A DNA stretch of 60,703 nt from an uncultured Campylobacterales bacterium (GTDB lineage Bacteria > Campylobacterota > Campylobacteria > Campylobacterales > Sulfurimonadaceae): positions 1 to 60,703 of the forward strand of contig CAITKP010000080.1 of the NCBI GenBank assembly GCA_903892995.1. The letters are read 5' to 3'. Both the position numbers and the translations under genes were made by a program. Every line of letters begins with the position of its first letter. The stretch's first letter is position 1. Shown here piece by piece: positions 19,997 through 56,799 of this stretch. The notes under the pieces were generated by a model that saw only the letters and a program-made list of their open reading frames with translations, was not told where the DNA came from and made no database searches.

Positions 19997-20028
19997 CACT
20001 CTTTCAATGAAAATCTTTACAATAGCTC

Positions 20029-28681: not shown

Positions 28682-28682
28682 G

Positions 28683-29774: not shown

Positions 29775-29788
29775 CTGTTTCCTTTACA

Positions 29789-30733: not shown

Positions 30734-30823
30734 TATTTACCTTTTTTCCTATTATTTATTCTCAACTTGTATTTGATTACCTGAGAGTGCTTTGATTGAA
30801 TATTATGAGTTATATATGTCATT

Positions 30824-31249
30824 TTAATGTGCTAACTCATCTTCATTTATACTGGTATTCATGTCAAAAATAGGTTTATCCTTATTGGATAATAGAAGAA
30901 TTATTTTTTTGAATTTTTTCAAAACTTCAATAACTTTAAAAGATAGATAAATCAAAATTACAAGATAAAAATAGAGTAAACTATTAAAAATAACTCGATA
31001 ATTTGGAGTAACAAGTTTTTCAACAACTAAAATTATTATTGAGAAAATAAATAAACTCATGAATCCAATAGCCAAATTGGCAACATCACTGATAAACTTT
31101 TTATACCGATCTGATTGCTTTAATTTTTTTATTTTCCAATTTTCATTTGAAAGTGTCATTAAAATACTATACGCCGTTAAAATTAATCCAACAAAACCTA
31201 TACTAATTGCAAGTAATTCTTTAATGATTGATAAAATTTCTGTTTCCAT
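30824..31249 (-). CDS. Small membrane protein in defence operon
   Basis: 141 residues with three or four membrane segments (about 10-32, 57-77, 86-107), charged loops (KIKKLKQSDRYKK) and a cytoplasmic-looking acidic tail. Overlaps the upstream gene by one base. No family recognised. The 90 bp after it (30734-30823) contain no gene and are A+T rich. Confidence 0.7.
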   Translation of the reverse strand: METEILSIIKELLAISIGFVGLILTAYSILMTLSNENWKIKKLKQSDRYKKFISDVANLAIGFMSLFIFSIIILVVEKLVTPNYRVIFNSLLYFYLVILIYLSFKVIEVLKKFKKIILLLSNKDKPIFDMNTSINEDELAH

Positions 31250-32145
31250 TAGTCATACCTTTCATCTCTTTTTGTATAGTTGTCAAGAAAATTTTTGTGT
31301 TTATTGTACATTTCATTGAAATATTTATTTGGATTCGCAAGATAAAAAGTTATATCCGTAAATGATCTTTGGTCTCGAAGTTGGTATTGTTCTAATGATA
31401 CAATTGCTTTTCTATTTGACAATTTTGCTTTTGCATTTGTAATAATTCCACTGTCAAGTACACCAAATTTTTGTAAAGCTTTTTTAGTGAGTGCTCCAAT
31501 AAAAAAACTTTTTTTAAGAAAATGCTCATTTTCTGCATTGAATTTTAGTTGACATGTTGTTGCCCCAGTATAGTTTTCGCTTTCAAATTCATCAAATGAA
31601 TCTTGCGGAGCAAATCCAACTGTCAGTGAAATATTTTGAATTTCTCCACTGTCCAATGCTTGAAAAAGATCATCAACATAAATCGGAACTAGTTCAACCG
31701 TATAAATATCTTTAAAATGAAAATGCAAATATTCACGAAATTGAAGTGCAGAATTTGCTTTTCTATTTTTTTGAAATATAACAATACCGTTGCAAAAAAC
31801 TTTTACACGATTATATTCTTTTAATGCAATATCATCTCGTTGTGTTGCAACTTTAACTTTATCTGTTATGCTGTAATCAATATCTCCATTCTTTAAAAAA
31901 GTTCCAGTAAGTTCATCTTTATCATAACGTGCGAAACTCACAATTACACCATCATCATGTCGTTCTATATATGAAAAAGCTCTACTACAAATACCTTCTT
32001 TACACTGATAACGGTGGTTTACTTGAGAAATATCTAAAGGTTTTTTTTCTAATGCTTCAATTAGTTCTTTAAAAGGAATAATTACCTCTGTTTTACTGTT
32101 AATTACGGTTAATCGTAAATATTCATATTTTAATACTTTTGCCAT
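31249..32145 (-). CDS. Unknown protein co-translated with the DNA methyltransferase
   Basis: 298 residues, no recognised domain. It looks like a mixed alpha/beta soluble protein (LRLTVINSKTEVIIPFKELIEAL; ITFYLANPNKYFNEMY). It overlaps the methyltransferase stop and the membrane gene start by one base each, so all three are translationally linked. A specificity, sensor or scaffold role is possible; the sequence itself gives no function. Confidence 0.7.
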   Translation of the reverse strand: MAKVLKYEYLRLTVINSKTEVIIPFKELIEALEKKPLDISQVNHRYQCKEGICSRAFSYIERHDDGVIVSFARYDKDELTGTFLKNGDIDYSITDKVKVATQRDDIALKEYNRVKVFCNGIVIFQKNRKANSALQFREYLHFHFKDIYTVELVPIYVDDLFQALDSGEIQNISLTVGFAPQDSFDEFESENYTGATTCQLKFNAENEHFLKKSFFIGALTKKALQKFGVLDSGIITNAKAKLSNRKAIVSLEQYQLRDQRSFTDITFYLANPNKYFNEMYNKHKNFLDNYTKRDERYD

Positions 32146-34927: not shown

Positions 34928-34989
34928 CTTGATTTATTCATTTTGTCATACCAAAGTGGTTTTTGGTAGTTTCTTTTGTTCTAAAAGTC

Positions 34990-35008
34990 GAGAATAGAGC
35001 TTGCATTA
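34990..35008 (+). promoter_or_regulatory. Sigma54-like -24/-12 element, nifH operon
   Basis: GAGAATA-GAGC-TTGCATTA. The -12 GC is at 35003-35004, giving a predicted start near 35016 and a leader of about 72 nt. Same pattern as the nifB, nifU and P-II elements. Confidence 0.6.
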
Positions 35009-35072: not shown

Positions 35073-35996
<924 letters not shown>

Positions 35997-35997
35997 G

Positions 35998-36012
35998 AAG
36001 CTTTCAAAGCTT
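35998..36012 (+). terminator. Short hairpin after nifH
   Basis: AAGCTTTCAAAGCTT, a perfect inverted repeat immediately after the nifH stop, followed by TTGCGTTT. Probably a partial terminator or 3'-end stabiliser that would favour nifH over downstream transcripts. Confidence 0.5.
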
Positions 36013-36065
36013 TTGCGTTTATTCTCATAATGAAAAGAAAATAATAGAAAAAGAAGGAGAATGAG

Positions 36066-36413
36066 ATGTTTATTTTAGGTTTTCACTTCCCAGCAGAGTT
36101 GGGAAACAATGTTCCAGATGAGGCAGTTGTTGCAAAATTAGATGAATCAGGTGTAGATGTAAGCGGTATTAACGAGATTAAAATGTTTACTGAATATCAT
36201 GGACAAAATGAAGAACTTTCTTACACTAAGAAAGATACTTTTATGTTTAAAGCACTTGCTCATTACATAAAAACTGCTGAAACAGATTATATGATCTACA
36301 CAAACCGTTACCAAATTTCTGAGCTTTCTAAACGTTTAGACAGTGATGATGAGACTATGGCTCTTTGTAAAAAATTTGATTCTATGGCTCACTTTAAAAT
36401 TACAGCTGCGTAA
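36066..36413 (+). CDS. Small conserved-looking protein between nifH and nifD
   Basis: 115 residues, soluble, acidic, one cysteine, no recognised domain (begins MFILGFHFPAELGNN). Strong ribosome site (AAGGAG). Its position inside nifH-nifD, where most diazotrophs have nothing, suggests a nitrogenase-related role; P-II-like NifI proteins occupy this place in methanogens, but this sequence has no P-II signature. Confidence 0.75.
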   Translation: MFILGFHFPAELGNNVPDEAVVAKLDESGVDVSGINEIKMFTEYHGQNEELSYTKKDTFMFKALAHYIKTAETDYMIYTNRYQISELSKRLDSDDETMALCKKFDSMAHFKITAA

Positions 36414-36494
36414 GCTAATCGTTTTAATTAGTTTAAGACAAAAAAGCCACAAAGTGGTTGAGCTTACTGCTGAAGTAAACTTAGCGTTAGCGTA

Positions 36495-36525
36495 GATAAA
36501 TGGGCTTTTGCTCATTTATCGTTTT
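36495..36525 (+). terminator. Strong hairpin before nifD (attenuator-like)
   Basis: GATAAATGGGC (36495-36505) pairs with GCTCATTTATC (36510-36520) through 11 bp with one G-T wobble and a TTTT loop, followed by GTTTT. It looks like an intrinsic terminator or attenuator inside the nifH-nifDK transcript. The 137-bp gap also holds a CCAC-AAA-GTGG hairpin (36447-36457). Confidence 0.6.
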
Positions 36526-36550
36526 AAAAAAAGAGTATAAGGAGAATGAA

Positions 36551-38023
36551 ATGGGTCCAGAATCATTGGAAGCAAGACAAAAAGCCGCAGTTGAGGAAGT
36601 ATTAAAAGCTTATCCTGAAAAAGCTGCTAAAAATCGTGCTAAACACTTAGGCGTTGGCTCTCCGGAAGACGAAAGCCAAAAAACTTGTGGAAATGTACGT
36701 TCAAATAAGAAAACTGTTCCAGGTGTTATGAGCCAACGTGGTTGTGCATACGCAGGAAGTAAAGGGGTTGTTTGGGGTCCAGTTAAAGATATGGTACATA
36801 TCTCTCATGGTCCAGTTGGTTGTGGACAGTACTCACGTGCTGGTCGCCGTAACTACTACATCGGAACAACAGGTGTTGATACTTTCGTAACTATGAACTT
36901 TACATCAGATTTCCAAGAAAAAGATATCGTTTTCGGTGGAGATAAAAAACTGACTAAATGTTTAGAAGAGATAGATGCACTTTTCCCATTGAACAATGGT
37001 ATAACTGTTCAATCAGAGTGTCCAATTGGTCTCATCGGTGATGATATCAATGCAACATCAAAACAATATGCTAAACAAACAGGTCAAACTATTGTTCCTG
37101 TAAACTGTGAAGGTTTCCGTGGTGTTTCTCAATCACTTGGTCACCACATCGCAAATGATACTGTTCGCGATTATGTATTTGATGCAAATCCTACAGTTCT
37201 TGGCGCACCGATTGAAGTAACTGAATATGACGTTGCTATTATCGGGGATTACAACATCGGTGGAGATGCTTGGTCAAGCCGTATTTTACTAGAAGAGATG
37301 GGTCTTCGTGTTGTTGCTCAATGGTCGGGCGATGCTACTTTAAAAGAGATGGCAGCTACAACAAAAGTAAAACTAAACTTACTTCACTGCTACCGTTCTA
37401 TGAACTATATTTCTCGTCATATGGAGAAAGAATATGGGATTCCTTGGATAGAGTATAACTTCTTTGGCCCAAGCCAAACGATCAAATCTCTACGCAAAAT
37501 CGCTGCATTCTTTGATGAGACTATACAAGCAAAATGTGAAGAGGTTATCGAAAAATACCAACCACTTGTTGATGCAGTGGTAAATAAATATCGTCCTCGC
37601 CTAGAAGGCAAACAAGTAATGTTGTTCGTTGGTGGCTTACGCCCTCGTCACGTTATTGGTGCTTATGAAGATCTAGGTATGGAAGTTATCGGTACTGGTT
37701 ATGAGTTCGCTCATGATGATGACTACAAACGCACAAAAGATGAGATTTTTCGCTCAACTGTTATCTATGATGATGTGAATGAATATGAACTTGAAGCGTT
37801 TGTTAAAGCATTGCAACCAGATTTAGTAGCTTCAGGTATCAAAGAGAAGTATGTGTTCCAAAAAATGGGTCTTCCTTACAGACAGATGCACTCTTGGGAT
37901 TATAGTGGTCCTTACCACGGATATGATGGTTTTGCAATCTTTGCTCAGGATATGGATTTAGCGATAAATTCTCCAGTATGGGCACACACTAAAGCACCAT
38001 GGGATAAAGAAGGAGAAGCGTAA
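36551..38023 (+). CDS. nifD: Nitrogenase molybdenum-iron protein alpha chain
   Basis: NifD, FeMo-co-binding subunit, 490 residues from ATG 36551, which has AAGGAG just upstream; an upstream in-frame ATG (36500) lies inside the terminator-like hairpin and is rejected. FeMo-co ligands C280 ([11 protein letters not shown]) and H447 ([12 protein letters not shown]) are present; P-cluster cysteines appear in [16 protein letters not shown] and [11 protein letters not shown]. The length and motifs are those of Mo-nitrogenase, not VnfD or AnfD. The stop overlaps the nifK start by one base. Confidence 0.98.
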
Positions 38024-39570
38024 TGCAAGAAATAGAAAAAATTGTAAATGGTCAAAAACTATTTCAACGTCCTGAGTATCAAGAAGTTTTGAAAAACAAA
38101 AAAGAGTTCGAAGGCGGTATGGGCGCTATCGATGCTGAAAAAGTAACAGAGATCGCAGAGTGGACTAAAACATGGGATTACCGTGAAAAAAATCTTGCTC
38201 GTGAAGCTATTACTGTTAACCCTGCAAAAGCATGTCAGCCTCTTGGTGCTGTCATGGTTGCGCTTGGGTTTGAAAACACTATGCCTTATGTTCATGGAAG
38301 CCACGGATGTGTTGCATATTTTCGTTCATATTTCACAAAACACTTTAAAGAGCCAACTCCTTGTGTTAGTGATTCTATGACTGAAGATGCAGCAGTTTTT
38401 GGTGGTCTTGCAAATATGAAAGATGGTCTTAAAAACTGTGCGGCACTTTACAAACCTGAAATGATTGCAGTTTCTACTACATGTATGGCTGAAGTTATCG
38501 GTGATGACTTGTATGCGTTTGCTGTTGCTGCAAAAGAGGAAGATGGTGGTGAGTATTTACCAGCAGAATTTCCAATCACTTATGCACACACACCATCATT
38601 TACAGGTAGCCATATCACGGGTTATGACAACATGATGCATGGCATATTAGAGCAGTTAACTACTGATCAAAAAACTGAAGAGAAAAAAGAGCGTATCAAT
38701 ATCATTCCAGGTTTTGAGACGTACATCGGTTCAATCCGTTCTGTAAAAGCTATAGTAGAATCATTTGGTGCTTCTTACATGATGCTTGGTGATCACTCAG
38801 ACCAATGGGACATGCCAGCGGGTAACTACAGCATGTTTTCTGGTGGTACACCAATAGCTGATGCAAAAGATAGTATCAATTCAACATCAACTATATCTTT
38901 ACAAAAATACGCAACTGTTAAAACTATGAAAATGGTTCAAAAACGTTGGAAACATAAAGGCGGATTCTCTAACCCGATCGGTCTGAAAGGGACTGATGAG
39001 TTCGTTATGAAATTGGCTGAACTTACAGGTAACGATATTCCAGCAAAACTAAAAATTGAGCGTGGTCGTCTTGTTGATGCTATGCAAGATTCTTATCCAT
39101 ATATGCACGGTAAAAAATTCGCTATCTGGGGAGATCCAGACTTCTTGGTAGGGTTGGTTTCATTCCTTTTAGAGATGGGTGCTGAGCCAACTCACGTTCT
39201 TTGTCACAATGCTCCAAAAGGTTGGGATGAAGAGATGAGAGAGATGCTTGATACTTCACCAGCAGCGGCAAGCTGTCATGTATGGGCTGGAAAAGATCTC
39301 TGGCATATGCGTTCATTACTATTCACTGAGCCGGTTGATTTTATGATCGGTAACAGTTATGGTAAAGAGCTTATGAGAGATACTGGAATTCCACTTATTT
39401 ATATTGGATTCCCGATTTTCGACCGTCACCACCTACACCGCTACTCAATAGCTGGTTATGATGGAGCGTTAAATCTTTTAACTTGGATTACAAATAAAGT
39501 TCTAGACCAGTTAGACGAAGAGACTAAAAACATCGCTTCAACTGACTACTTCTTCGACTTAGTTCGTTAA
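38023..39570 (+). CDS. nifK: Nitrogenase molybdenum-iron protein beta chain
   Basis: NifK, 515 residues, partner of NifD in the alpha2-beta2 MoFe protein. P-cluster cysteine motifs: NPAKACQPLGA, HGSHGCVAYFRSYF and STTCMAEVIGDD. The start ATG shares its A with the nifD stop. A strong hairpin follows the gene, closing the nifH-nifK unit. Confidence 0.98.
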   Translation: MQEIEKIVNGQKLFQRPEYQEVLKNKKEFEGGMGAIDAEKVTEIAEWTKTWDYREKNLAREAITVNPAKACQPLGAVMVALGFENTMPYVHGSHGCVAYFRSYFTKHFKEPTPCVSDSMTEDAAVFGGLANMKDGLKNCAALYKPEMIAVSTTCMAEVIGDDLYAFAVAAKEEDGGEYLPAEFPITYAHTPSFTGSHITGYDNMMHGILEQLTTDQKTEEKKERINIIPGFETYIGSIRSVKAIVESFGASYMMLGDHSDQWDMPAGNYSMFSGGTPIADAKDSINSTSTISLQKYATVKTMKMVQKRWKHKGGFSNPIGLKGTDEFVMKLAELTGNDIPAKLKIERGRLVDAMQDSYPYMHGKKFAIWGDPDFLVGLVSFLLEMGAEPTHVLCHNAPKGWDEEMREMLDTSPAAASCHVWAGKDLWHMRSLLFTEPVDFMIGNSYGKELMRDTGIPLIYIGFPIFDRHHLHRYSIAGYDGALNLLTWITNKVLDQLDEETKNIASTDYFFDLVR

Positions 39571-40289: not shown

Positions 40290-40352
40290 CAAATCAGTGG
40301 AGCCAATAAATTACCCTGCGGGCAATTCATCGGCTCATTTTAAACGTTATGT
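40284..40352 (+). mobile_element. attC site 1
   Basis: 69-bp attC: R'' GCCTAAC (40284-40290), inner pair GAGCC/GGCTC, central TTACCCTGCGGGCAATT, and the crossover core GTTATGT at 40346-40352. The R'' is the exact reverse complement of GTTAGGC at 39763-39769, which opens the same cassette; this is the defining property of an integron cassette. Confidence 0.85.
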
Positions 40353-40381
40353 TCATTTAACTTATACAAAGGAATTTAAAT

Positions 40382-41143
40382 ATGGGTCGAGCTAAAGAAT
40401 ATTGGATGGAGCAGCAAGAAGCTGCGGCTCATGAAGAAAAACTTGAATGGATTAAAGAGTATTTGGAAAATGATGAAGTAGAAGAGTATAGTTCAGAATG
40501 GCATGAAGCAGAAGAAGCATATGAAGAACATCAAAGTGGAATGCACCTATATTGGGAAAACTTAATGCATGAAAAAGAATACGAAGATTATTGGACGGTA
40601 GAAGGCAAAACAACATTTCAGATATTTAATGAAATTATTGAAAGTTCTCAAGAAATTATAAATATAGAGATTAGTAATAAAAGCAAAAAAAACTTATTCG
40701 TAATGCTTTACGGACATGTTGTTGCTGCAGTTGAAGCCTATCTTTCATCAACATTTATTGAAAAAGTTTTATCATCTAAAAATTCTAATTATATAAGAAA
40801 ACTAGTTGAGAATGATCCTGAGTTTGGAAAAAGAAAATTCACTATGAAAGAAATTTTTACAAAACAAGAAGAACTTAAGAATGAAGTTAAATTATACTTA
40901 AGGGATCTCATATTTCATAAGATAGATAAAGTAAAACCTATGTATAAAGATGTATTGGATATAGATTTTGGAGATGACATAAGATGGTTATTTGATGCAG
41001 TGATATTAAGACACGATTGTGTACATAGAGCTGGATACGATAAAGATGGCAATGAAGTTGAATTAGATAAAGAAAAAGTAGAACTCTTAATAAACAAATG
41101 TAAGCAACTAGTTGAAAATATAGAAGCTGAACTGCTAACATAA
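40382..41143 (+). CDS. Cassette 2: HEPN-like RxxxxH protein
   Basis: 253 residues. A charged, helical N terminus (about 1-80, many E/K/W/Y) is followed by an all-helical region ending in VILRHDCVHRAGYDKDGN, whose R-x4-H spacing is the catalytic signature of HEPN ribonuclease domains. HEPN proteins are common toxins and defence effectors. The stop is inside the attC core ACATAAC. Catalysis is inferred from the motif alone. Confidence 0.65.
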   Translation: MGRAKEYWMEQQEAAAHEEKLEWIKEYLENDEVEEYSSEWHEAEEAYEEHQSGMHLYWENLMHEKEYEDYWTVEGKTTFQIFNEIIESSQEIINIEISNKSKKNLFVMLYGHVVAAVEAYLSSTFIEKVLSSKNSNYIRKLVENDPEFGKRKFTMKEIFTKQEELKNEVKLYLRDLIFHKIDKVKPMYKDVLDIDFGDDIRWLFDAVILRHDCVHRAGYDKDGNEVELDKEKVELLINKCKQLVENIEAELLT

Positions 41144-41205
41144 CAAGTACTAGGAGAAAAATAAGTAGCCTAGCGGCGACTTATTTCTTAAGACAGTCGT
41201 TATAT
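41138..41205 (+). mobile_element. attC site 2
   Basis: 68-bp attC: ACATAAC (41138-41144) to GTTATAT (41199-41205), with a central stem AAATAAGT/ACTTATTT. ACATAAC is the exact reverse complement of GTTATGT (40346-40352), the left end of cassette 2. Confidence 0.85.
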
Positions 41206-41236
41206 CTAAATCAAAATTTAAAAATAGGTATTTGAA

Positions 41237-41983
41237 ATGAACAATAAAAAAATTGATTTATTTGAAGATAATGAATTGAAAATTTACAGTGAGAGAAATA
41301 GGAAGCCTGAAGAGTGTAAATTACCTTCAGATATTTTAGTACCAGTTAAGGATAAATTAATTAATACTATTAATACATCAGAGGATGCAGCAAAACATGC
41401 AATTGAAAATTATGGAGATCATAATTTACAAAATCATATTTCAGATGCTTTAAATTCAAATGAAGAATTTAAAGCATTAAGAGGCAATGTACCATCAAAA
41501 ACACCAAAAGAACTATCAAATTATCAAAAAAAATATGATAGAAATGATCATAAAACAAAAGATGAAGCAGATAAGAAAATTAAAGAAGTAGGAACACTAT
41601 TAGCAAATGGACAAGAACTGTTTCATGGTGGAAAGCTAATAGATACAAAAGAAGGCAATGAATTAACACTATCTTCTCCACTTTCCACAACATTTGATCC
41701 TGTAATTGCAAATATTGAAGCAATACATAAAGGTAAAGCTTATGATGAAGGAGAATTAAATATTAATATAATAACTAATAAAAATTCCAAAGCAAAATGT
41801 TTTCCTTTTAGACACAAGGGTACTAGCTTTGGACATGAAAAAGAAGTATTAATTTCATCAGGAGCAAAATTGGTTGTAAATGAAAAAAAGAAAATATCTG
41901 AAACTACTGCATACAAACATGAAAATGGAAAAGATATAAAAAAAGTAGTACCTGTTTATATTACTAAAATAGATATGTCATAA
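41237..41983 (+). CDS. Cassette 3: putative ADP-ribosyltransferase-fold protein
   Basis: 248 residues, rich in K/N/E, no signal peptide. The C-terminal half resembles a bacterial ADP-ribosyltransferase fold of the R-S-ExE type: LFHGGKL in the place of the first (R) motif, LSSPLSTTFDP as the S-T-S/T motif, and FGHEKEVLISSGAKLVV as the ExE strand-loop. The usual Arg of the first motif appears replaced by His, so activity is uncertain. The gene is followed 60 bp later by an attC core. Confidence 0.5.
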   Translation: MNNKKIDLFEDNELKIYSERNRKPEECKLPSDILVPVKDKLINTINTSEDAAKHAIENYGDHNLQNHISDALNSNEEFKALRGNVPSKTPKELSNYQKKYDRNDHKTKDEADKKIKEVGTLLANGQELFHGGKLIDTKEGNELTLSSPLSTTFDPVIANIEAIHKGKAYDEGELNINIITNKNSKAKCFPFRHKGTSFGHEKEVLISSGAKLVVNEKKKISETTAYKHENGKDIKKVVPVYITKIDMS

Positions 41984-42043
41984 AACAAATATATTTTAGT
42001 AGAGTGATTAAAATTTAATTTCTTAGTAATAAAATAAGTCCAG

Positions 42044-42206
42044 ATATAACAAATCATAGAAGTAAACAAGGGTGTACTTGCGGTGACTTAAGCTTTAAAC
42101 TCTAAAAAAGTTAAAATATATTTCGACTGGATAAGTGCTTAAGAAAATCATTGGAGAGAAATATTTGACCCTGCGGCTCAAATATTTCTCACCTCAATCG
42201 TTATAT
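42044..42206 (+). mobile_element. attC site 3 (long)
   Basis: ATATAAC (42044-42050) to GTTATAT (42200-42206), 163 bp. ATATAAC is the reverse complement of GTTATAT at 41199-41205, the left end of cassette 3. The right half has a 13-bp stem GAGAAATATTTGA/TCAAATATTTCTC around CCCTGCGGC; the left half has a different partial stem (AAGTAAAC...GTGACTT), so this may be two fused attC sites. Confidence 0.75.
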
Positions 42207-42514
42207 CCAAAAGCCACATTATCTAAAAATTTGAATATACCTATTTATGAAAGTGGATTGGTAAATTCAAAATAAGGGTGAAAAATGAGTTTTAATACTG
42301 TAGATACAGTACAGTTAAAATTTGGTAGTAAAAAATGATAATTGAAGAAATCAATGAATAGTTCCATTTAATGAAAACATATATGTCATTTTGTTAGAAT
42401 CGTGTGTATTTTAGATAATGAAATTATTATTTTAGCTATTATGCAACTTCATAGAAAACCAAATTACTGGAAAGACAGAAGCTAAATACTAAACGATAGG
42501 AACAAGCAACAATA
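42207..42514 (+). other. Decayed cassette remnant, no intact gene
   Basis: About 300 bp after the last core site with no gene of normal size. There is a 17-codon open frame at 42285-42338 (MSFNTVDTVQLKFGSKK) after GGGTGAAAA, perhaps the start of a lost cassette gene. No closing attC (ATATAAC) is found downstream, so this is the broken right end of the array. Confidence 0.5.
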
Positions 42515-47920: not shown

Positions 47921-47969
47921 AAAATCTCTTTTTTATTTTTATGGATGCATATTGTGTGCTTAACTCTTC

Positions 47970-47988
47970 TCGAACAAAACTTGCAATA
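47970..47988 (+). promoter_or_regulatory. Sigma54-like -24/-12 element, nifE operon
   Basis: TCGAACA-AAAC-TTGCAATA. GC at 47983-47984 predicts a start near 47996, 26 nt before nifE. No good ACA-W4-TGT palindrome is seen upstream of this one. Confidence 0.55.
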
Positions 47989-48021: not shown

Positions 48022-49380
48022 ATGGTGAGTCGTGCGAAGATAAAAGAGTTGATGAATGAGAGCGCTTGCTCTCACAATAAAGATAAAAAAAAAGGTGAGG
48101 GCTGTGATATGCCAAAACCAGGGATGGCAGCGGGAGGATGTGCTTTTGATGGAGCGCAAATCTCACTTTTTCCCTACGCGGATGCTGTACACTTAGTGCA
48201 TGGGCCACAAACCTGTCTTGGTGCTTCATGGGAGACGAGAGAAACGCTAAGCTCTTATGCGGGGCGCAACCACACAGTCATGGGTTTTACGACGGGTATC
48301 ACGACAAATGATGTCATTTTTGGAGGTGACAAACGCCTTGATGCCTCTCTTGCTTACATTGTAGAACATTACGCACCTGAGGCAATCTTTGTCTATTCTA
48401 CTTGTGTGACAGCGATGGTGGGCGATGATATCGACATGACCTGCAAACTCGCACAAAAAGCACACAATATCCCAATAGTTCCCGTTCATGCTCCAGGGTT
48501 TGTAGGTGGGAAAAATCTCGGCTCACGACTTGCTGGTGAAGCGGTTTTAGAGCATCTCATCGGTACAAAAGAGCCTGAATTTACCACGCCTTATGATATC
48601 AATCTCATCGGTGATTACAACGTCACGGGTGATATGTGGCAGTATCTGCCTTTGTTTGAAAAGATCGGTATCAGGGTTCTGAGCTCTATGAGCGGTGATG
48701 GGCGTGTGGGCGATATCCGCACAGCACACCGTGCAAAGCTCAATGTTATCGTGTGTGCAAAGTCGCTTGTAACCCTTTGTAGAAAGATGCAAGAGCGCTA
48801 TGACATCCCTTGGATATCGGTCTCATTTTATGGCAAACGCGATACCACTTTTGCCATTATGGAGATTGTAAACGCTCTTGGTGATGCAACGCTTATCGCA
48901 AAAGCAAAAGAGATTTTGGCCGAGGAAGAGTCTTTCTTGGAAGAGAAACTATTGCCATATAAAGAGATGTTTGCTGGCAAAAAAGCAGTCTTAAATACAG
49001 GTGGAAACAAAGCATGGTCAATCGCTTCGGGACTTCAAGATTTGGGCATAGAAGTGGTTGCCACGTCTATACGCAAATCGACAGAAGATGATATCCAAAA
49101 AGCAAGAGAGTATCTCGGAGAAAACGGCATTCTTATGAGGGCACCTGCAAGCGAACAAGCAAAAGTGATCGACGAAAAGGGTGCGCACATCTTGCTTGCG
49201 GGTGGACGAAGCCTTTACACTGCTATCAAGAAAAAGATCTCTTTTATCGATGTCAATCAAGAGAAAAAAGTGAGTTACGGCGGATACAACGGACTCTTAA
49301 ATCTTGCAGAAGACCTCAAATACGCATTTAATAATCCCGTTTTTGCAAATGTCTGCGCACCTGCACCGTGGGAGGTTTAA
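48022..49380 (+). CDS. nifE: FeMo-co scaffold protein NifE
   Basis: NifE forms with NifN the scaffold on which NifB-co matures to FeMo-co. 452 residues, NifD-like. N-terminal CDMPKPGMAAGGCAFDGAQ, HGPQTCLGASWETRE and STCVTAMVGDD supply the cluster cysteines. Ribosome site AAAGGAG. The 3' end is followed by the nifN start 2 bp later, so the nifE-nifN pair is tightly coupled. Confidence 0.97.
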   Translation: MVSRAKIKELMNESACSHNKDKKKGEGCDMPKPGMAAGGCAFDGAQISLFPYADAVHLVHGPQTCLGASWETRETLSSYAGRNHTVMGFTTGITTNDVIFGGDKRLDASLAYIVEHYAPEAIFVYSTCVTAMVGDDIDMTCKLAQKAHNIPIVPVHAPGFVGGKNLGSRLAGEAVLEHLIGTKEPEFTTPYDINLIGDYNVTGDMWQYLPLFEKIGIRVLSSMSGDGRVGDIRTAHRAKLNVIVCAKSLVTLCRKMQERYDIPWISVSFYGKRDTTFAIMEIVNALGDATLIAKAKEILAEEESFLEEKLLPYKEMFAGKKAVLNTGGNKAWSIASGLQDLGIEVVATSIRKSTEDDIQKAREYLGENGILMRAPASEQAKVIDEKGAHILLAGGRSLYTAIKKKISFIDVNQEKKVSYGGYNGLLNLAEDLKYAFNNPVFANVCAPAPWEV

Positions 49381-49382
49381 GT

Positions 49383-50693
49383 ATGGAAGCTAAAAAAATA
49401 AAACTGAGCTCTCAAGAGCATAAACCGCTTCAAATAAATCCTATCAAACACTCCCAACCTATGGGCGCGGCACTTGCTTTTATGGGCATAAAAAACTGTT
49501 TGCCATTGATGCATGGTTCCCAAGGATGTGCTTCTTATACAAAAGTACTCTACACTCGCCATTACAATGAGCCTATCCCTTTATATAACACCTCTGTCAG
49601 TGATATTACAGCGGTTTTTGATGGAGGAGATTTTTCCATACTTATGGCGATTGAAAATATCACAAAGAAAAATACAACGCTCAAACCAGAACTCATCGGA
49701 CTGCATACAACAGGTCTAACAGAGACAAAAGGGGATGATGTAAGAAGTGTTGGAATCCATGTCGAGATTCCCTACTGTTATGTCAATACTCCCGATTTTG
49801 AAGGTGGAATGGAGAGCGGATGGGCGCTTACATGTAAGGCTTTGATACTCCAACATACCTTTACATGTAAGGATATAAAGCCAAAAAAACTTGTGCTTTT
49901 ACCAAATGTAAATATACAGCCTATTGAAATAGAGAAGCTAAAAGAGTGCTGTACTAATCTTGGTTTTGAGACTTTTGCTCTGCCTGATCTTTCAACTTCT
50001 CTTGATGGATATCTCAGTGAGGGACAAGGAAAACTAGCAACTGGAGGTATCGCCATTGAAGAGATCGCTAATCTTGGAGATGCCCAGATCGTTGTGAGTA
50101 TCGGCCGTTCTATGAAAAGCGCAGCAGAGGCACTTTTACAAAAGAATGAAGCTATAGAGCATCTGCATTTTAATCATCTGATGGGTTTAGAGGCAAATGA
50201 CAATTTTGTCGCATCTTTGATGAAAATGGCGCAAGTGACACCATATCCATTGCTCAAACGTTGGAGAGGAAGGCTTCAAGATGCGATGCTTGATGCCCAT
50301 TTTCTCATCGGTTCATCCTCTTTTGTAGTCACTGGAGAGCCTGATATGTGTGTGGGAATATGTGAGCTTTTACAAAGTGTCGGAGGGACTGTTTATGCGG
50401 TGATAGCGACAGTATATTCGCCAGTTTTAGAAGAGATAAAAGCTGAAAATATCTTTGTAGGCGACCTTGAAGATGCAAAAAGTTATTTCCAAAATGCAGA
50501 CCTTGTCATCAGCAATTTTCATGCAGAACGAATCTTGCACATGCAAGAGAAACATACGGCTTTAGTGTTACGAGGATTTCCAAACTATGAAGAGCTAGGC
50601 AACCAGCTCAAGAACGATCAGCTTTATGAGGGAAGTACATATTTTCTTTTTGAAGTCGCAAATAAACTTCGTGAACTCAAATATCACGGATAA
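49383..50693 (+). CDS. nifN: FeMo-co scaffold protein NifN
   Basis: NifN, NifK-like partner of NifE, 436 residues from ATG 49383, which has GGAGG 7 bp upstream; an in-frame GTG at 49368 is unlikely. Motifs: INPIKHSQPMGAALAFMG, HGSQGCASYTKV, TTGLTETKGDD. Compared with NifK it lacks part of the P-cluster ligands, as expected. Two TTACATGTAA copies lie 33 bp apart (49828 and 49861). Confidence 0.96.
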   Translation: MEAKKIKLSSQEHKPLQINPIKHSQPMGAALAFMGIKNCLPLMHGSQGCASYTKVLYTRHYNEPIPLYNTSVSDITAVFDGGDFSILMAIENITKKNTTLKPELIGLHTTGLTETKGDDVRSVGIHVEIPYCYVNTPDFEGGMESGWALTCKALILQHTFTCKDIKPKKLVLLPNVNIQPIEIEKLKECCTNLGFETFALPDLSTSLDGYLSEGQGKLATGGIAIEEIANLGDAQIVVSIGRSMKSAAEALLQKNEAIEHLHFNHLMGLEANDNFVASLMKMAQVTPYPLLKRWRGRLQDAMLDAHFLIGSSSFVVTGEPDMCVGICELLQSVGGTVYAVIATVYSPVLEEIKAENIFVGDLEDAKSYFQNADLVISNFHAERILHMQEKHTALVLRGFPNYEELGNQLKNDQLYEGSTYFLFEVANKLRELKYHG

Positions 50694-50720
50694 AAATCTA
50701 AATAAAGCAGGAGATACACG

Positions 50721-51176
50721 ATGAGTGAAACTACAAAAATAAGTGTTGAGAGTAACAGTTCTTTAGAAAATGCTATCAAAGTAGCATTTGCAACAAAAGA
50801 TATGCAAACAGTGAATGCGCATTTTGGTGGAGCAAAAGAGTTTGTCGTTTATAAAGTTTCTAAAGATGGATTTTTAATGAGTGAGGTTATCCAAACTGAT
50901 ACTTCTGATGTTGAAAGTGATGACAAAACAGATTTTAAAGTCAGAGCACTTGCTGGTATAAACATCATGTACTGCGAATCTATCGGGGGAACTGCTGCTG
51001 CAAAAGTGATCCGTGCTGGAATGAATCCGATGAAAGTACAAGAACCACGTGCAATCGAAGATATTTTAAAAGAGCTTGTTGGAATGATAAATGGCAATCC
51101 ACCACCTTGGGTAAAAAAGATAATGAAGATCACATCAGAGACTGATCCACGCCTAGAGCGTTGGACAGAAGAATAG
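50721..51176 (+). CDS. nifX: Nitrogenase cofactor carrier NifX
   Basis: 151 residues with the NifX/NifB-C domain: IKVAFATKDMQTVNAHFGGAKEFVVYKV and YCESIGGTAAAKVIRAGMNPMKV. NifX binds FeMo-co precursors in transit between NifB, NifEN and NifDK. It lies 27 bp after nifN and 10 bp before the DUF269 gene, the common nifENX-DUF269 order. Confidence 0.95.
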   Translation: MSETTKISVESNSSLENAIKVAFATKDMQTVNAHFGGAKEFVVYKVSKDGFLMSEVIQTDTSDVESDDKTDFKVRALAGINIMYCESIGGTAAAKVIRAGMNPMKVQEPRAIEDILKELVGMINGNPPPWVKKIMKITSETDPRLERWTEE

Positions 51177-51186
51177 GGAGAGTAAT

Positions 51187-51633
51187 ATGAGTCAAGAAAC
51201 AGTAGAGTTTAGTCCATTTACACAGGAGCTTATCCGCCAATTAAGAGCGCTTGACCAATTTGGAAACTGGGCAAAGATGAGCGATGAAGAGCTTTTGGCA
51301 AAGAAGTATGTTAAGACAAAAGAGGATTTAAAATCGATCCCTATCATCGCAGATATCGATGAGGTTCTCATTGGGGATATCAAAATCATTTTCAAAGCAG
51401 TTGCACTGCAGTTTGAACGTCAAACCGGTGTTATGTGTAATGTCATCATGGAGATGAGCCATGAGGGTTTTGGACGCTGTGTCGTCATAACTGACAAAAT
51501 TGTCTTAATGGACAAATATTTTAAAGATGCTCACCGCTTTAGCTTTAGAACACTAGAAAAGCTCTATGAAGAGGGTGACAAATATCTAAACAATTCGTTT
51601 GAGATATACAATAAATTTAAACCGTGTATGTAA
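51187..51633 (+). CDS. NifX-associated nitrogen fixation protein (DUF269)
   Basis: 148 residues, DUF269 family (FTQELIRQLRALDQFGNWAKMSDEELL; LYEEGDKYLNNSFEIYNKFK). Found directly after nifX in most diazotrophs; thought to aid FeMo-co synthesis, exact role unknown. Confidence 0.93.
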   Translation: MSQETVEFSPFTQELIRQLRALDQFGNWAKMSDEELLAKKYVKTKEDLKSIPIIADIDEVLIGDIKIIFKAVALQFERQTGVMCNVIMEMSHEGFGRCVVITDKIVLMDKYFKDAHRFSFRTLEKLYEEGDKYLNNSFEIYNKFKPCM

Positions 51634-51643
51634 GGAGATAGTG

Positions 51644-52162
51644 ATGGCAAAAGTAGGCATATTTGTAGGAAGCAGTGGCGGAGTAACACTTGGAGTTGCA
51701 GAAAAACTCCAAGAGTTGTTTGATGGTGCAGAGCTTATCAATATGGAAGAGGATTATGATGATCTCTCCCAGTTTGATGAGTTTGATGTTTTACTTATAG
51801 GTTCTTCAACTTGGGGACAGGGCGATGTTCAGCGTGACTGGGTTGATCCACTTTATGAAATGAACAATGATGAACCAGATTTTAGCGGTAAAAAAGTCGC
51901 TTTCTTTGGTGCTGGAGATCAAAAAAGCCATCCAGAAGAGTTTGTAACAGCACTTGGAAAGATGAAAGATATCTTCACAAAACTTGGAGCAGATACTGAG
52001 TTTGGATACACATCAGTAGATGGTTACTCTTTTAAATACTCTTATGCGCAAAAAGATTCAAACTTTTGTGGTCTGGCAATTGATGAGATCAATCAAGAAG
52101 AGTTAACACAAGAGAGAGTTGAAAACTGGGTGGCTCAGATAAAAAAAGAGATGGGCATCTAA
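51644..52162 (+). CDS. nifF: Flavodoxin, nitrogenase electron donor
   Basis: 172 residues from ATG 51644 with AAGGAG upstream; an earlier in-frame ATG (51599) lies inside the DUF269 gene and is rejected. The FMN phosphate loop VGIFVGSSGGVTLGVAEKL is a variant of the usual SxTGxT; the WGQGDVQRDW and FGAGDQ loops are present. It is a long-chain flavodoxin, probably reducing NifH. Confidence 0.92.
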   Translation: MAKVGIFVGSSGGVTLGVAEKLQELFDGAELINMEEDYDDLSQFDEFDVLLIGSSTWGQGDVQRDWVDPLYEMNNDEPDFSGKKVAFFGAGDQKSHPEEFVTALGKMKDIFTKLGADTEFGYTSVDGYSFKYSYAQKDSNFCGLAIDEINQEELTQERVENWVAQIKKEMGI

Positions 52163-52174
52163 GAGTTTAAAGAT

Positions 52175-52184
52175 ACATTTTTGT
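52175..52184. promoter_or_regulatory. ACA-W4-TGT palindrome upstream of nifW
   Basis: ACATTTTTGT within TACATTTTTGTA, centred about 52 bp upstream of the predicted nifW start site. Confidence 0.5.
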
Positions 52185-52204
52185 AGTAGTTTGCAACACT
52201 CTTG

Positions 52205-52223
52205 TAGATTAGAAATTGCAATG
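52205..52223 (+). promoter_or_regulatory. Sigma54-like -24/-12 element, nifW operon
   Basis: TAGATTA-GAAA-TTGCAATG. GC at 52218-52219 predicts a start near 52231, 23 nt before nifW. Confidence 0.55.
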
Positions 52224-52253
52224 AGAATTATAATGAATGATGAAGGATAGAGT

Positions 52254-52631
52254 ATGAGCAGAGTTGAAGAGTTCCAATCACTTACTGACGCAGAAGATTA
52301 TTTTGATTTTTTTAACCTTGATTATGATGAGCGTCTTGTCTATGTTAAAAGATTCCATATTATGAAAAAGTATGGAGAGTTGATACAAAAAGCAGATGGA
52401 CATAATTTTGAGACAGATGAAAAACTACTTGATTATTATAAGTTTGCGCTTATCAGTGTCTATAAAAACTTTGAAAACGGTTACTCGCCATCTGCGGCTG
52501 AAATATGGAATACATTTGATAAACCAAGTGCATGTAGCACATGTTCAACATCGACTACATGTAACGATTTAGAGGAGGTCAGTCATGGAGTTCACGCATG
52601 CACAAGCCAATCAAATCTCAGCTTCAACTAA
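52254..52631 (+). CDS. nifW: Nitrogenase stabilising/protective protein NifW
   Basis: 125 residues. The first ~90 match NifW (LTDAEDYFDFFNLDYDERLVYVKRFHIMKKYGELI; LISVYKNFENGYSPSAAEIWNTF). NifW is linked to MoFe protein stability and cofactor insertion. The C-terminal extension is rich in Cys/Ser/Thr (ACSTCSTSTTC), not typical of the family. Overlaps nifZ by 47 bp in another frame. Confidence 0.9.
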   Translation: MSRVEEFQSLTDAEDYFDFFNLDYDERLVYVKRFHIMKKYGELIQKADGHNFETDEKLLDYYKFALISVYKNFENGYSPSAAEIWNTFDKPSACSTCSTSTTCNDLEEVSHGVHACTSQSNLSFN

Positions 52632-52986
52632 GGATGAAATTCTTCCAGTTTTTCGTTTAGGTCAGCGTGTTCGCATAACAAAACCTATAAAAAATGATGG
52701 TTCAAACCCATTTCATGAACCAAATGCAACTTTAGTTCATCCTGGAGCTGAGGGGTATGTCGTGCGTATTGGCGACTGGCTTCAAGTGATTCGCATCTAT
52801 GAAGTTCATTTCATAGAAGAGGGTGATACTTATGGATGCCGTGAAGCTGAGCTTGAATCTATAGAAGATATAGATGGTTATGATGAAGTAGCTGAAGAAC
52901 TTGCGTGGCTTCGCTCCCATCGTGCGCAAAAAGCCCTCAAAAAAGCGCTTGAGGCGCAATCTCAAAAGGAAGGAGAACCTAGCTGA
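52585..52986 (+). CDS. nifZ: NifZ
   Basis: 133 residues with the NifZ core LGQRVRITKPIKNDGSN, then PGAEGYVVRIGDWLQVIRIYEVHFIEEG. NifZ assists P-cluster maturation of NifDK. The start ATG 52585 follows GAGGAGG and lies inside the nifW frame; the acidic C-terminal helix is an extension. Confidence 0.93.
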   Translation: MEFTHAQANQISASTKDEILPVFRLGQRVRITKPIKNDGSNPFHEPNATLVHPGAEGYVVRIGDWLQVIRIYEVHFIEEGDTYGCREAELESIEDIDGYDEVAEELAWLRSHRAQKALKKALEAQSQKEGEPS

Positions 52987-53056
52987 CTTTTTGTGAATTG
53001 ACGATCGATAAAGTGTTTGGCCATAAATACTTTGCGTGATAAATTAAGGAGAGAGT

Positions 53057-53449
53057 ATGGTAAATGTTATTTTCTGCGGTTTTGGTGATGGAATGGATAA
53101 GCGTGTCGTTGCAAAGCAGGGTGATCTGCTGCTTCGTGTCGCCCTCAATAACGGTGTAATCATACCAACTGAGTGTAAAGATGGAATGTGCGGAAGCTGT
53201 GCTGTTCGTATTGAAGAGATCGGAACTATTCCATCAAACAATACAACAAGCGACATAGATCCAGATGGTTGGGATAAAAACAAATATACAACTTATATGG
53301 AAGAAAAAGAGCTAAACACACTAGTAGAGATGGGTGCAATCTCTAAACTTGAAGCTGAATCAGCACAACAATACACGCAACAAACAGCAGTAAGACTTGC
53401 ATGTCAATGTATCATTAAAGGTCCATTGCTTGTTAAACCGTTTGAATAA
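53057..53449 (+). CDS. [2Fe-2S] ferredoxin (130 residues)
   Basis: Plant-type [2Fe-2S] ferredoxin: CKDGMCGSC near residue 38 and the fourth ligand in ACQC near 115. The region between them (GTIPSNNTTSDIDPDGWDK) is an insert often seen in nif-associated FdxN/FdI-like proteins. Ribosome site AAGGAGAG. In the same run as nifW-nifZ; probably an electron donor or cluster carrier for nitrogenase. Confidence 0.9.
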   Translation: MVNVIFCGFGDGMDKRVVAKQGDLLLRVALNNGVIIPTECKDGMCGSCAVRIEEIGTIPSNNTTSDIDPDGWDKNKYTTYMEEKELNTLVEMGAISKLEAESAQQYTQQTAVRLACQCIIKGPLLVKPFE

Positions 53450-53473
53450 AAAATAAAAATAAAAGGAAACAAA

Positions 53474-53764
53474 ATGACAACTCGTGTAGAAATAATCAAT
53501 GACTTTTTAGCAATCAATGTAAAACCTGGTAAAACGATTCAAGATATCGTAGAAGCATCTGGAAGTGCTCTTCCATTTGGTTGTCGTGATGGCGAATGTG
53601 GTACATGTATCGTAACTATCGAATCTGGTATGGAGTTTATTAGCGAAGTAACAGAAAAAGAGAAAGCTGTTATGAAAATGTTGAATGAAGGTAGCCCAAA
53701 AGCTCGTCTCTCTTGCCAAATGAAAGTTGCTCATCCAAACGGTTTAGTACGCCTTAAATACTAA
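53474..53764 (+). CDS. [2Fe-2S] ferredoxin (96 residues)
   Basis: Second plant-type ferredoxin with CRDGECGTC (near 37-45) and ARLSCQMKV for the last ligand. 24 bp after the previous ferredoxin and followed by a strong terminator, so it ends the nifW-nifZ-fdx-fdx operon. Confidence 0.92.
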   Translation: MTTRVEIINDFLAINVKPGKTIQDIVEASGSALPFGCRDGECGTCIVTIESGMEFISEVTEKEKAVMKMLNEGSPKARLSCQMKVAHPNGLVRLKY

Positions 53765-53796: not shown

Positions 53797-53933
53797 TGCT
53801 TCAAGCTCTTCAACTTATCAAAAAAATCTAGAATAGTAAATGCAACAGTATAAAAGATAAGCAAAGAGTTGTTTGTTATTTGGATTGAAATAACTATAAT
53901 TTATAAAGAATATAAGTAAGAAAAGAAGTTATC

Positions 53934-55202
53934 ATGAAACAAGAATATTCATTCAAGCAAAAACAACTGCCAAAACTTTCTATGCAGACTTGGTTACCTC
54001 TTTTACAGTGTTCTCTGAGTGATCTTGATAAACATATTCAAGTCATTAGTAATGAAAATCCATGTATTGAAGTCCAGTCTGGATTTGAGATAAGCGAGGG
54101 GTCAAGCTCAAAATCTCACATGGCTTTTATGGAATACCAAAACAATGTGACAAATGCCGCAAGTGATGAGATAGAGTGGATGAGTGTTGCGACAGAATCT
54201 CTATATGAAAAACTCGATAACCAGATTTGCGCACCGCTTTTTCCAACACCGATCTCACAAAAGATAGCAAAACAGATCATCTACTATATCAATGACGAGG
54301 GATATTTTGAGGGTGATGTCAAAGAGATAGCAAGCCAACTTGAGGTAGATATCTATAAAGTAGAACAGGTGCGTCAGCGTTTTTCTTACCTAGAGCCTAT
54401 CGGCGTGGGTGCGGTTGATTATAAAGAGTCATTTTTATTTCAATTAAACGACCATGAAATCGATGATGAGCTTAGTATTTTGCTCAGTGCTATGATTACC
54501 CAGTTTGACAAAATGGAAAAGTTTATCAATCATCCACGATTTCATGATGCAAAAGAGATGCTAAGAAAATTGCATAATCCACCAGCTATGAGTTACATGC
54601 AAGCAGAAGAAAATATCTTGCCTGATCTTTTCATAGAGACTAAAGATGAGCAGTTTGTCATCAAAATAAATCATGCTTTTTATCCAGATCTGCTTGTGAC
54701 TCAGATAGATAAATACGACAATTTTGCAAAACAGAAGTTTAAAGAAGCACGCGAACTTGTCAATCTGCTAGACCTGAGAAAAGCAACACTTTATAACATC
54801 GCTCTTGTTCTTCTTGAAAAACAGTATGCTTTTTTTATGGGAGGAAAACTGCTTCCGCTTAAACTCCAAGATGTCGCAGATGAACTCGGATTTAACGAAT
54901 CAACTATTTCTCGAGCTATTAGTGATAAGTATCTGGAGTGTGATAGAGGTGTTTACTCCTTTAAAGATTTTTTCTCAAACGCTATTGATAATGTCTCAAC
55001 TTCAGAGATAAAAGAGTTTTTAGTGAGACTTGTAGAGTGTGAAGATAAAAAAAATCCCCTCAGTGACAAGCATCTTCATGAAAGTATTGAGGGTAGATTT
55101 GGCATCAAAATGGTAAGACGCTCCATCGCAAAATACCGCCAAGAACTCGATATACCAGCGTTTAAAGAGAGACTCTTTTTATATAAACTTTCGATGAAGT
55201 GA
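53934..55202 (+). CDS. rpoN: RNA polymerase sigma-54 factor, nif-linked
   Basis: 422 residues. A region I-like N terminus (QKQLPKLSMQTWLPLLQCSLSDLDKHI), core-binding domain, HTH (DELGFNESTISRAISDKYLEC) and C-terminal RpoN box VRRSIAKYRQ at 394-403 (usual form ARRTVAKYRE). Short compared with enteric RpoN, as in Campylobacterota. It lies alone between a terminator and the P-II gene. Because flagellar rpoN is usually elsewhere, this may be a nif-specific paralogue; the window cannot show whether another copy exists. Confidence 0.93.
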   Translation: MKQEYSFKQKQLPKLSMQTWLPLLQCSLSDLDKHIQVISNENPCIEVQSGFEISEGSSSKSHMAFMEYQNNVTNAASDEIEWMSVATESLYEKLDNQICAPLFPTPISQKIAKQIIYYINDEGYFEGDVKEIASQLEVDIYKVEQVRQRFSYLEPIGVGAVDYKESFLFQLNDHEIDDELSILLSAMITQFDKMEKFINHPRFHDAKEMLRKLHNPPAMSYMQAEENILPDLFIETKDEQFVIKINHAFYPDLLVTQIDKYDNFAKQKFKEARELVNLLDLRKATLYNIALVLLEKQYAFFMGGKLLPLKLQDVADELGFNESTISRAISDKYLECDRGVYSFKDFFSNAIDNVSTSEIKEFLVRLVECEDKKNPLSDKHLHESIEGRFGIKMVRRSIAKYRQELDIPAFKERLFLYKLSMK

Positions 55203-55283: not shown

Positions 55284-55682
55284 TTATGATGCAGGTGTAT
55301 CGATTGCAGTGAAGTAGCTATCTGCGAGATTTTTCTTTTTCTGGATCGTTGGATGCGCTAAAGCAGATTCATTGATCTCTCCTGTTCTGATTCTTTCCAC
55401 TTCTAAGACTGGAGTGACCCACATCTTTCCTGAACCATTTTCCGTATCACGAGTATTCGCGCGGATCGCTTCTTTTGCTGATTCTTTGAATGTTTCATTT
55501 GAAACTACGATATCAAGACGTACTTTGCTATCTAACTCTGTTTCACCACTCTCTTTTATAAAACCTAATCCACCTTTACCAAGTACTTGGCTGATAGTGA
55601 CACCCTCTATCTCTTTCTCTTTAAGATCAGTTAAAACATCTTGGAGACAACTATTGTTAAAAATGGCAGTGAGTAAATACAT
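55284..55682 (-). CDS. P-II family nitrogen regulator-like protein
   Basis: 132 residues from ATG 55682, which has AAAGGA upstream; a longer in-frame start is unlikely. It has the P-II C-terminal signature GSGKMWVTPVLEVERIRTGE and a GlnB-like start (MYLLTAIFNNSCLQDVLTDL). The T-loop (about 36-52) is short and lacks the tyrosine that is uridylylated, and the C terminus is extended by about 20 residues. A nif-specific variant is likely. It is divergent from nifU and carries its own -24/-12-like element. Confidence 0.88.
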   Translation of the reverse strand: MYLLTAIFNNSCLQDVLTDLKEKEIEGVTISQVLGKGGLGFIKESGETELDSKVRLDIVVSNETFKESAKEAIRANTRDTENGSGKMWVTPVLEVERIRTGEINESALAHPTIQKKKNLADSYFTAIDTPAS

Positions 55683-55711: not shown

Positions 55712-55729
55712 ATTGCAATTATCGTTCTA
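55712..55729 (-). promoter_or_regulatory. Sigma54-like -24/-12 element, P-II gene
   Basis: On the minus strand: TAGAACG-ATAA-TTGCAAT. Nearly identical to the nifB element. It predicts a start near 55703, 21 nt before the ATG. Confidence 0.6.
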
Positions 55730-55746
55730 GAATCAGAGAGAACCAT

Positions 55747-55756: not shown

Positions 55757-55778
55757 TATTTTTTTTAAATACCTCTTT

Positions 55779-55797
55779 AAGAATAGGAATTGCATAA
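55779..55797 (+). promoter_or_regulatory. Sigma54-like -24/-12 element, nifU operon
   Basis: AAGAATA-GGAA-TTGCATAA. GC at 55792-55793 predicts a start near 55805, 20 nt before nifU. Confidence 0.6.
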
Positions 55798-55824: not shown

Positions 55825-56799
55825 ATGATGGCTAGAAATGATTTGATTGGTGGTGCATTGTGGGAAGAGTACTCAACTGAAGTACAGCGTCGTATGAACA
55901 ATCCTATAAATATGGGAGAGATCACTGAAGAAGAAGCGGGTGATAACCAACTCATCATCGCTGACTTTGGCGCTGAGAGCTGCGGAGATGCGGTAAGACT
56001 TTATTGGCTCATTGACCCAAAAACAGACACAATCGAAAAAAGTAAATTTAAAAGTTTTGGTTGTGGGACGGCTATTGCATCATCTGATATGATGGCTGAG
56101 CTTTGTATGGGTAAAACTGTAGATGACGCGCTTAAAATCACAAATATCGACGTAGAAAAAGCGCTTCGTGATGAGGCAGATATTCCAGCAGTTCCAGGGC
56201 AAAAAATGCACTGTTCCGTTATGGCTTACGATGTTATCAAAAAAGCAGCATCAATCTACAAAAATGTAGATATGGAGAGTTTTGAGACAGAGTTTATCAT
56301 CTGTGAATGTGCGCGTGTTTCTCAAGATACACTCAAACAAGTGATTAAACTCAATAAACTCTCCTCAATCGAAGAGATTACAGACTATACAAAAGCGGGT
56401 GGTTTTTGTAAGTCTTGTATCAAAGCTGGTGGGCATGAAGTTAAAGATGTTTATATTATGGATATTCTCGAAGAGATAAAAGCTGAGATGGACGCAGAAG
56501 AGCGATCACGCAAAGTTATCGAAGCAAAAGGGGATGGTACTTTTGAATCTATGGGACTTGTGATGAAGATAAAATCAGTTGAGTCAATACTCGAAGAGTA
56601 TATCCGCCCAACTTTAAAAGCAGACAACGGAAATGTAGAACTCATCGACATCAAAGAGGAAAACGGAGTATTTAACGTACTTATAAAATACCAAGGTGAG
56701 TGTATGAGCTGCTCTATGAATACAACGACTACCTTGGCGGGTATAGAAGATATGCTCAAGTTTAAACTCAAAGCAAATATCAAAGTAATAGTTACTTAA
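55825..56799 (+). CDS. nifU: Fe-S cluster assembly scaffold NifU
   Basis: 324 residues in the full three-domain form: an IscU-like scaffold with AESCGDAV, FGCGTAIAS and MHCSVMA; a central [2Fe-2S] domain (IICECARVS...GGFCKSCI); and a C-terminal Nfu domain with GECMSCSM. It builds clusters for NifH and for the NifB precursor. ATG 55828 is an alternative start. nifS, its usual partner, is not in the window. Confidence 0.97.
   Translation: MMARNDLIGGALWEEYSTEVQRRMNNPINMGEITEEEAGDNQLIIADFGAESCGDAVRLYWLIDPKTDTIEKSKFKSFGCGTAIASSDMMAELCMGKTVDDALKITNIDVEKALRDEADIPAVPGQKMHCSVMAYDVIKKAASIYKNVDMESFETEFIICECARVSQDTLKQVIKLNKLSSIEEITDYTKAGGFCKSCIKAGGHEVKDVYIMDILEEIKAEMDAEERSRKVIEAKGDGTFESMGLVMKIKSVESILEEYIRPTLKADNGNVELIDIKEENGVFNVLIKYQGECMSCSMNTTTTLAGIEDMLKFKLKANIKVIVT

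Follow-up and report, generated by a model that had tools for sequence, protein, structure and literature searches.

A nif-linked sigma54 and nif promoters altered at -25 in Sulfurimonas-related Campylobacterota suggest insulation of nif from flagellar sigma54

The window analysed here, that is the whole stretch of 60,703 nucleotides from an uncultured Campylobacterales bacterium, corresponds to contig C80. The genome spans 2.43 Mb in 107 contigs, and the named organisms closest to it are Sulfurimonas and Sulfuricurvum. Genes in the window are nifB, a homocitrate-synthase-like gene, nifHDK, nifENX, nifW, nifZ, rpoN and nifU, together with ferredoxin genes and one for PII. On the forward strand, nifH, a small ORF, nifD and nifK (35088-39570) were assigned by a profile match for nifH and by their translations. 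They are followed on the same strand by nifE, nifN, nifX, a TIGR02935 gene, a flavodoxin gene, nifW, nifZ and two 2Fe-2S-type ferredoxin genes (48022-53764), by rpoN and by nifU (55825-56799; TIGR02000, below its cut-off). A P-II family regulator (Pfam P-II, 69 bits) is encoded on the reverse strand at 55284-55681, convergent with rpoN. The interval between nifK and nifE holds, at about 40290-42215, small genes of unknown function with TAACAA...CGTTAT spacers, which by eye look like integron attC sites; an inverted-repeat search of these spacers gave one clear short hairpin (42153-42193), and a Fic-family gene follows the block at 42515. Another block, on the minus strand between the nifV-like region and nifH (25609-34805), includes a large methyltransferase-like protein and, judging by the translations, resembles an island for restriction or defence.

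The rpoN gene (53934-55202, forward strand) is complete and encodes a protein of 422 amino acids. The Pfam domains Sigma54_AID, CBD and DBD are all present and in order, which identifies a full RpoN, and the match to TIGR02395 reaches 327.7 bits with a cut-off of 277. The identification of the gene and its position inside the nif cluster, as given in the initial annotation, were thus confirmed, and the protein is 71-91% identical to those of 30 Sulfurimonas and Sulfuricurvum loci. Its RpoN box, VRRSIAKYRQ (55113-55142, forward strand), was placed by alignment to a solved sigma54 and spans V394 to Q403. R395 and R396 correspond to R455 and R456 of the Klebsiella pneumoniae protein, which contact the -24 element (PMC9770992), so both DNA-contacting arginines are present. 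The threonine that usually follows them, T457 in K. pneumoniae, is replaced by S397. This is a variant residue at a position where threonine is usual and not defining, and membership in the RpoN family is unaffected. Compared with the common ARRTVAKYRE, the box had been described as variant; the unusual change is the one at residue 397. V and I are found phylum-wide, including the other RpoN of the same genome (VRRTIAKYRK), and some genera have Q in their flagellar RpoNs too. A helix-turn-helix segment recognising the -12 element, F320-N321-E322-S323...R327, was located at 54891-54914 (forward strand) by alignment to K. pneumoniae H377, S379 and R383; F320 and E322 mark nif RpoNs, and flagellar RpoNs have H and P there.

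A search of the same genome with PF04552 gave exactly two matches, at 54720-55172 in the window and at C82:1862-2323. The second rpoN, for which the initial annotation had proposed a search, adjoins an ABC-type ATPase gene that is taken for lptB on the basis of its sequence, and the two RpoNs are about 42% identical. The window gene is hence not a sole rpoN that also serves flagellar promoters with a normal GG. A search with PF00158 returned one clear activator, which combines a receiver with an AAA+ domain. Its best match is the FlgR model NF049963, with a score below the model cut-off; a domain search for a helix-turn-helix in this protein gave no match. As this first activator search returned the FlgR type alone, NifA seemed to be missing from the genome. 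This was ruled out by an N-terminal piece of NifA with a GAF domain at the very start of contig C105 (C105:142-723), which matches the first third of TIGR01817 with 63.7 bits. In the relatives G163 and G116, a full activator of about 550 amino acids is encoded at distances of about 7 and 12 kb from the nif-linked rpoN; an equivalent gene would therefore fall past the end of the window here. Across the relatives, rpoN and a NifA-type activator travel together with nif.

The RpoN proteins of 75 genomes, nearly all of which have nifH, form three groups in the tree: a flagellar type and two nif types, N1 and N2. N1 occurs in families f7, f10, f4 and others, and N2, which includes the RpoN of the window, in Sulfurimonas and Sulfuricurvum. 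The boxes read mostly VRRTI[A/T]KYR[K/Q/E] in the flagellar group, mostly VRRTITKYRK in N1 and VRR[S/V/L]IAKYRQ in N2. The threonine at position 397 is retained in the flagellar and N1 clades and lost throughout N2, where all 54 relatives have S, V or L; almost everywhere else the residue is T. Two genomes of family f7 (G044 and G122), which by a guess is Arcobacter-like, have a nif-linked rpoN as their only rpoN and a sole activator of NifA length, and flagellar rod genes are nonetheless present. Among the flagellar genes sampled in these two genomes, no sigma54-like sites resembling those of other genomes were found, and their sigma54 may serve nif alone.

Canonical sigma54 promoters have GG at -25/-24 and GC at -13/-12. 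The GG is treated as nearly invariant and is used to find sigma54 regulons. The initial annotation had stated that promoters of the cluster lack a perfect GG, pointing to nifB, and this proved real well beyond that gene. Candidate variant sites, scored as 17-base sequences, lie on the forward strand upstream of nifB (CTAGAACACCAATTGCA, 20028-20044), nifH (CGAGAATAGAGCTTGCA, 34989-35005), nifE (CTCGAACAAAACTTGCA, 47969-47985, with CG instead of GG), rpoN itself (CTAGAATAGTAAATGCA, 53828-53844) and nifU (TAAGAATAGGAATTGCA, 55778-55794), and on the reverse strand upstream of the PII gene (CTAGAACGATAATTGCA, 55714-55730). Single-site shuffle p-values for these six range from 0.005 to 0.02. A weaker candidate upstream of nifW (GTAGATTAGAAATTGCA, 52204-52220, forward strand) has a shuffle p of 0.14 and is not significant alone. 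All seven window sites have GC at -13/-12 with the 10-base spacing, and orthologous promoters of about 40 genomes retain the variant sites. The AG-type site of the PII gene suggests that this gene belongs to the nif regulon. A further sigma54-like site, GCAGAACGAATCTTGCA (50523-50539, forward strand), lies inside nifN and upstream of nifX. It is also present in N2 relatives, where its conservation may reflect an internal promoter or simply the coding sequence.

Scanning the own genome with YTMGAAYNNNNNWTGCA gave 17 matches, compared with 4 for a control pattern. Ten of the AG/CG matches fall in nif regions, four in the window and six on contig C105, where nifX-like, ferredoxin and NifS genes are found besides the NifA piece; the other seven are all inside coding ORFs. 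Two of the sites on C105 precede ferredoxin ORFs by 32-45 bases, and the remaining ones were placed by neighbourhood only. Genome-wide, the sites of this type outside unrelated coding ORFs are thus those at nif genes.

The first promoter scoring favoured GG, and the later tallies of nif and flagellar sites left -25 free. In flagellated N2 genomes, the base at -25 of the nif sites is A in 104, C in 10, G in 2 and T in 1 of 117, and 116 of the 117 have A at -11; these site counts are non-independent events, and a few near-identical genomes are possibly counted twice. The nif promoters of this clade keep the canonical spacing, the G at -24, the AAY and the GC, and nearly all have A or C as the first base of the GG. 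Each promoter holds its own base, mostly C at nifE and A at the others. The two exceptions with G are single sites in two genomes, at nifW in G060 and at nifU in G426. In the N1 nif genomes, G is found at -25 in 42 of 45 sites, nearly all of them at nifH. Eight N2 genomes, the own genome among them, gave 29 rows of flagellar promoters, or 28 distinct sites after removal of one duplicate, and every one of these sites carries G at -25 and T at -11. In the own genome, the flagellar promoters have GG in 6 of 6. Position -11 therefore separates nif from flagellar promoters in both nif clades and position -25 in N2 only.

The distribution of GG among N2 genomes follows the loss of flagella in part. 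Six of them, G191, G288, G305, G360, G303 and G403, have neither flagellar rod/hook genes nor the other rpoN, so that the nif-linked RpoN clade survives alone where flagella are gone. The first four belong to one genus (g6), lack PF00460 rod/hook genes and have one rpoN, of N2 type; they and G303 have one activator only, of NifA type (in g6 a frame of NifA length). G occupies -25 in 14 of 27 nif sites of the aflagellate genomes. In g6, GG is found at the nifH, nifB and nifU promoters and AG still at rpoN and nifW. Locus L032 of G403 has GG at its rpoN promoter, and because of this G403 was expected to have no flagella and no second rpoN. This expectation was recorded before the results were seen, and one rpoN and zero rod genes were found. 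The third aflagellate case, G303, which is taken to be the same genome as G412, keeps AG at nifH, nifU and rpoN. Fisher's test on the sites gave p = 2e-10, a value that is descriptive only since related sites are treated as independent. The AG state is most simply explained by a single origin, and the evidence for reversal comes from two losses, in the g6 clade and in G403. A GC bias could also be considered as an explanation for the GG of g6, where the DNA around nif has about 56% GC. This is weakened by G217, which keeps AG at 52.6% GC, and by the sister locus L033 (55.6% GC, flagellated, two rpoN genes), which retains AG at nifU and nifW; because of L033, composition alone fails to explain the reversal.

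The explanation that we consider likely is that two sigma54 systems run in parallel, with nif promoters degraded at -25 in a way that would exclude the flagellar sigma54 and be tolerated by the nif sigma54. The lptB-linked RpoN together with FlgR would transcribe flagellar genes from TGGAAY-N5-WTGCT promoters, and the nif-linked RpoN together with NifA would transcribe nif genes, and probably its own gene, from [A/C]GAAY-N5-WTGCA promoters. Two positions would keep the systems apart. One is -11, with A for nif and T for flagella, a difference that is common to all nif-type RpoNs of the phylum and parallels residues 320 and 322 of the helix-turn-helix. The other is -25, where the first G is replaced by A or C in N2 nif promoters. 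The nif RpoN, with a box lacking the threonine that usually follows the two arginines, may tolerate these bases, and the flagellar RpoN presumably does not. The change at -25 would most likely weaken binding by the flagellar sigma54, and its main effect would be to prevent this sigma54 from occupying nif promoters or to spare it useless binding. Exclusion as the selective force is inferred from the return of GG, with the box unchanged, where flagella and their sigma54 have been lost. Several observations count against this explanation: rpoN and nifW of g6 stay AG, G303 stays AG at nifH, nifU and rpoN, the nifW site of G060 and the nifU site of G426 are GG although these genomes are flagellated, and Sulfurospirillum-like lineages with two sigma54s have retained GG and GC in their nifH sites, so that -11 alone seems to provide the distinction there.

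Three other explanations have to be weighed against the pattern. According to the initial annotation, the variant box matches the altered -24 element, i.e. the nif RpoN would prefer A (or C) to G when reading -25, and the promoters would have changed accordingly. The loss of the box threonine in all 54 N2 RpoNs and the A/C promoters of the same clade speak for such a positive recoding, which we nevertheless regard as unlikely. In the aflagellate N2 genomes, GG promoters at nifH, nifB and nifU occur together with the same box, and this reversal beside an unchanged box argues against a box that must read A. S397 also stands beside GG in G134 and G336 and is therefore insufficient alone as a marker of tolerance at -25. 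The same or a similar box beside GG promoters rules out the box change as sole determinant. In addition, Sulfurimonas diazotrophicus HSL3-1 is non-motile, fixes 15N2 and has a genome of 2.49 Mb with 57.3% GC (PMC12029903). It resembles g6 in size, GC content and lack of flagella, and if it were a member, which is a guess, GG would work with an N2 box. The data fit tolerance by the nif RpoN and exclusion of the other RpoN better than a box that reads A.

The loss of the threonine and the occurrence of A, C and occasionally G would be expected if the nif RpoN simply ignored -25 and the base drifted, without any insulation. This is a rather improbable explanation, since drift should yield G often, and flagellated N2 genomes have it in 2 of 117 sites even at 52-56% GC, compared with the 14 of 27 in aflagellate ones; furthermore, the promoters retain their specific bases. 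Finally, the sites were predicted from sequence, with single-site p-values of only 0.005-0.02, and they might not be sigma54 promoters, or the nif-linked RpoN might serve other genes. This is very improbable. The spacing, the GC at -13/-12, the position and the conservation all match sigma54 sites, the orthologous nifH promoters of N1 are canonical GG-N10-GC, and rpoN and the NifA-type activator occur jointly with nif.

A different base appears to be affected in another lineage. Five N1 genomes with two sigma54s (G143, G165, G282, G326 and G379) have GG...TGTA at nifH, with T for C at -12 in 5 of 5, and most other nif sites found in them are also without C at -12; in this tally -12 was free and weight was given to G at -25. 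Variants with T or A instead of C were seen at nif promoters of loci L064, L071-L073 and L254-L265 in these five genomes. One-sigma54 nif genomes outside N2 keep C at -12 in 25 of 26 cases. The two-sigma54 group g28, Sulfurospirillum-like by a guess, keeps it as well, so the pattern is not universal, and the -12 lineage is a lead. A broader code, in which a near-invariant base is sacrificed for excluding a paralogue (-25 in Sulfurimonas and Sulfuricurvum and, separately, -12 in the other lineage) and tends to be regained after loss of the competitor, seems slightly favoured.

The insulation of nif from flagella by sigma54 paralogues is itself an already known principle. In Cereibacter (Rhodobacter) sphaeroides, RpoN1 for nif and RpoN2 for flagella are insulated via -11 and cognate activators (PMC11999139 citing Poggio 2006; PMC3162934). 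The genome studied here is similar in having at least two rpoN genes, one of them nif-linked, and in the separation at -11 of nif (A in 116/117) from flagellar promoters (T in 28/28). The genome likewise encodes separate activators, the FlgR-like protein and the NifA fragment at the contig edge, each of which may work with its own RpoN only. In contrast to C. sphaeroides, where the reported promoter difference concerns -11 only, -25 is also replaced across the nif regulon here and returns to G in some lineages from which the flagellar paralogue has disappeared. Two rpoN genes are likewise described for nitrogen-fixing rhizobia, namely Bradyrhizobium DOA9 and Mesorhizobium loti, in PMC9977809 and PMC3538637, and PMC3162934 mentions that two promoter consensus sequences of B. 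japonicum differ at -12. The Campylobacterota flagellar system of RpoN and FlgR, represented in the same genome by the FlgR-like activator and GG...TGCT promoters, appears from these sequences to be the one from which nif is insulated. The claim of a coevolved sigma54 with its own promoters is supported as far as the separate RpoN clade and the promoters are concerned, and not as a new way of insulating nif. A literature search, which missed most subscription papers, found no account of nif/flagella sigma54 insulation in Campylobacterota, and the -25 code, its reversal and the separate -12 variant elsewhere appear to be new.

A clade that drops GG would escape searches for sigma54 regulons that are based on this dinucleotide. 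Furthermore, these bacteria offer a natural and testable case of two sigma54s held orthogonal by one or two bases, with the GG reversals after competitor loss as a built-in control, and they suggest parts for an orthogonal sigma54 expression of nif.
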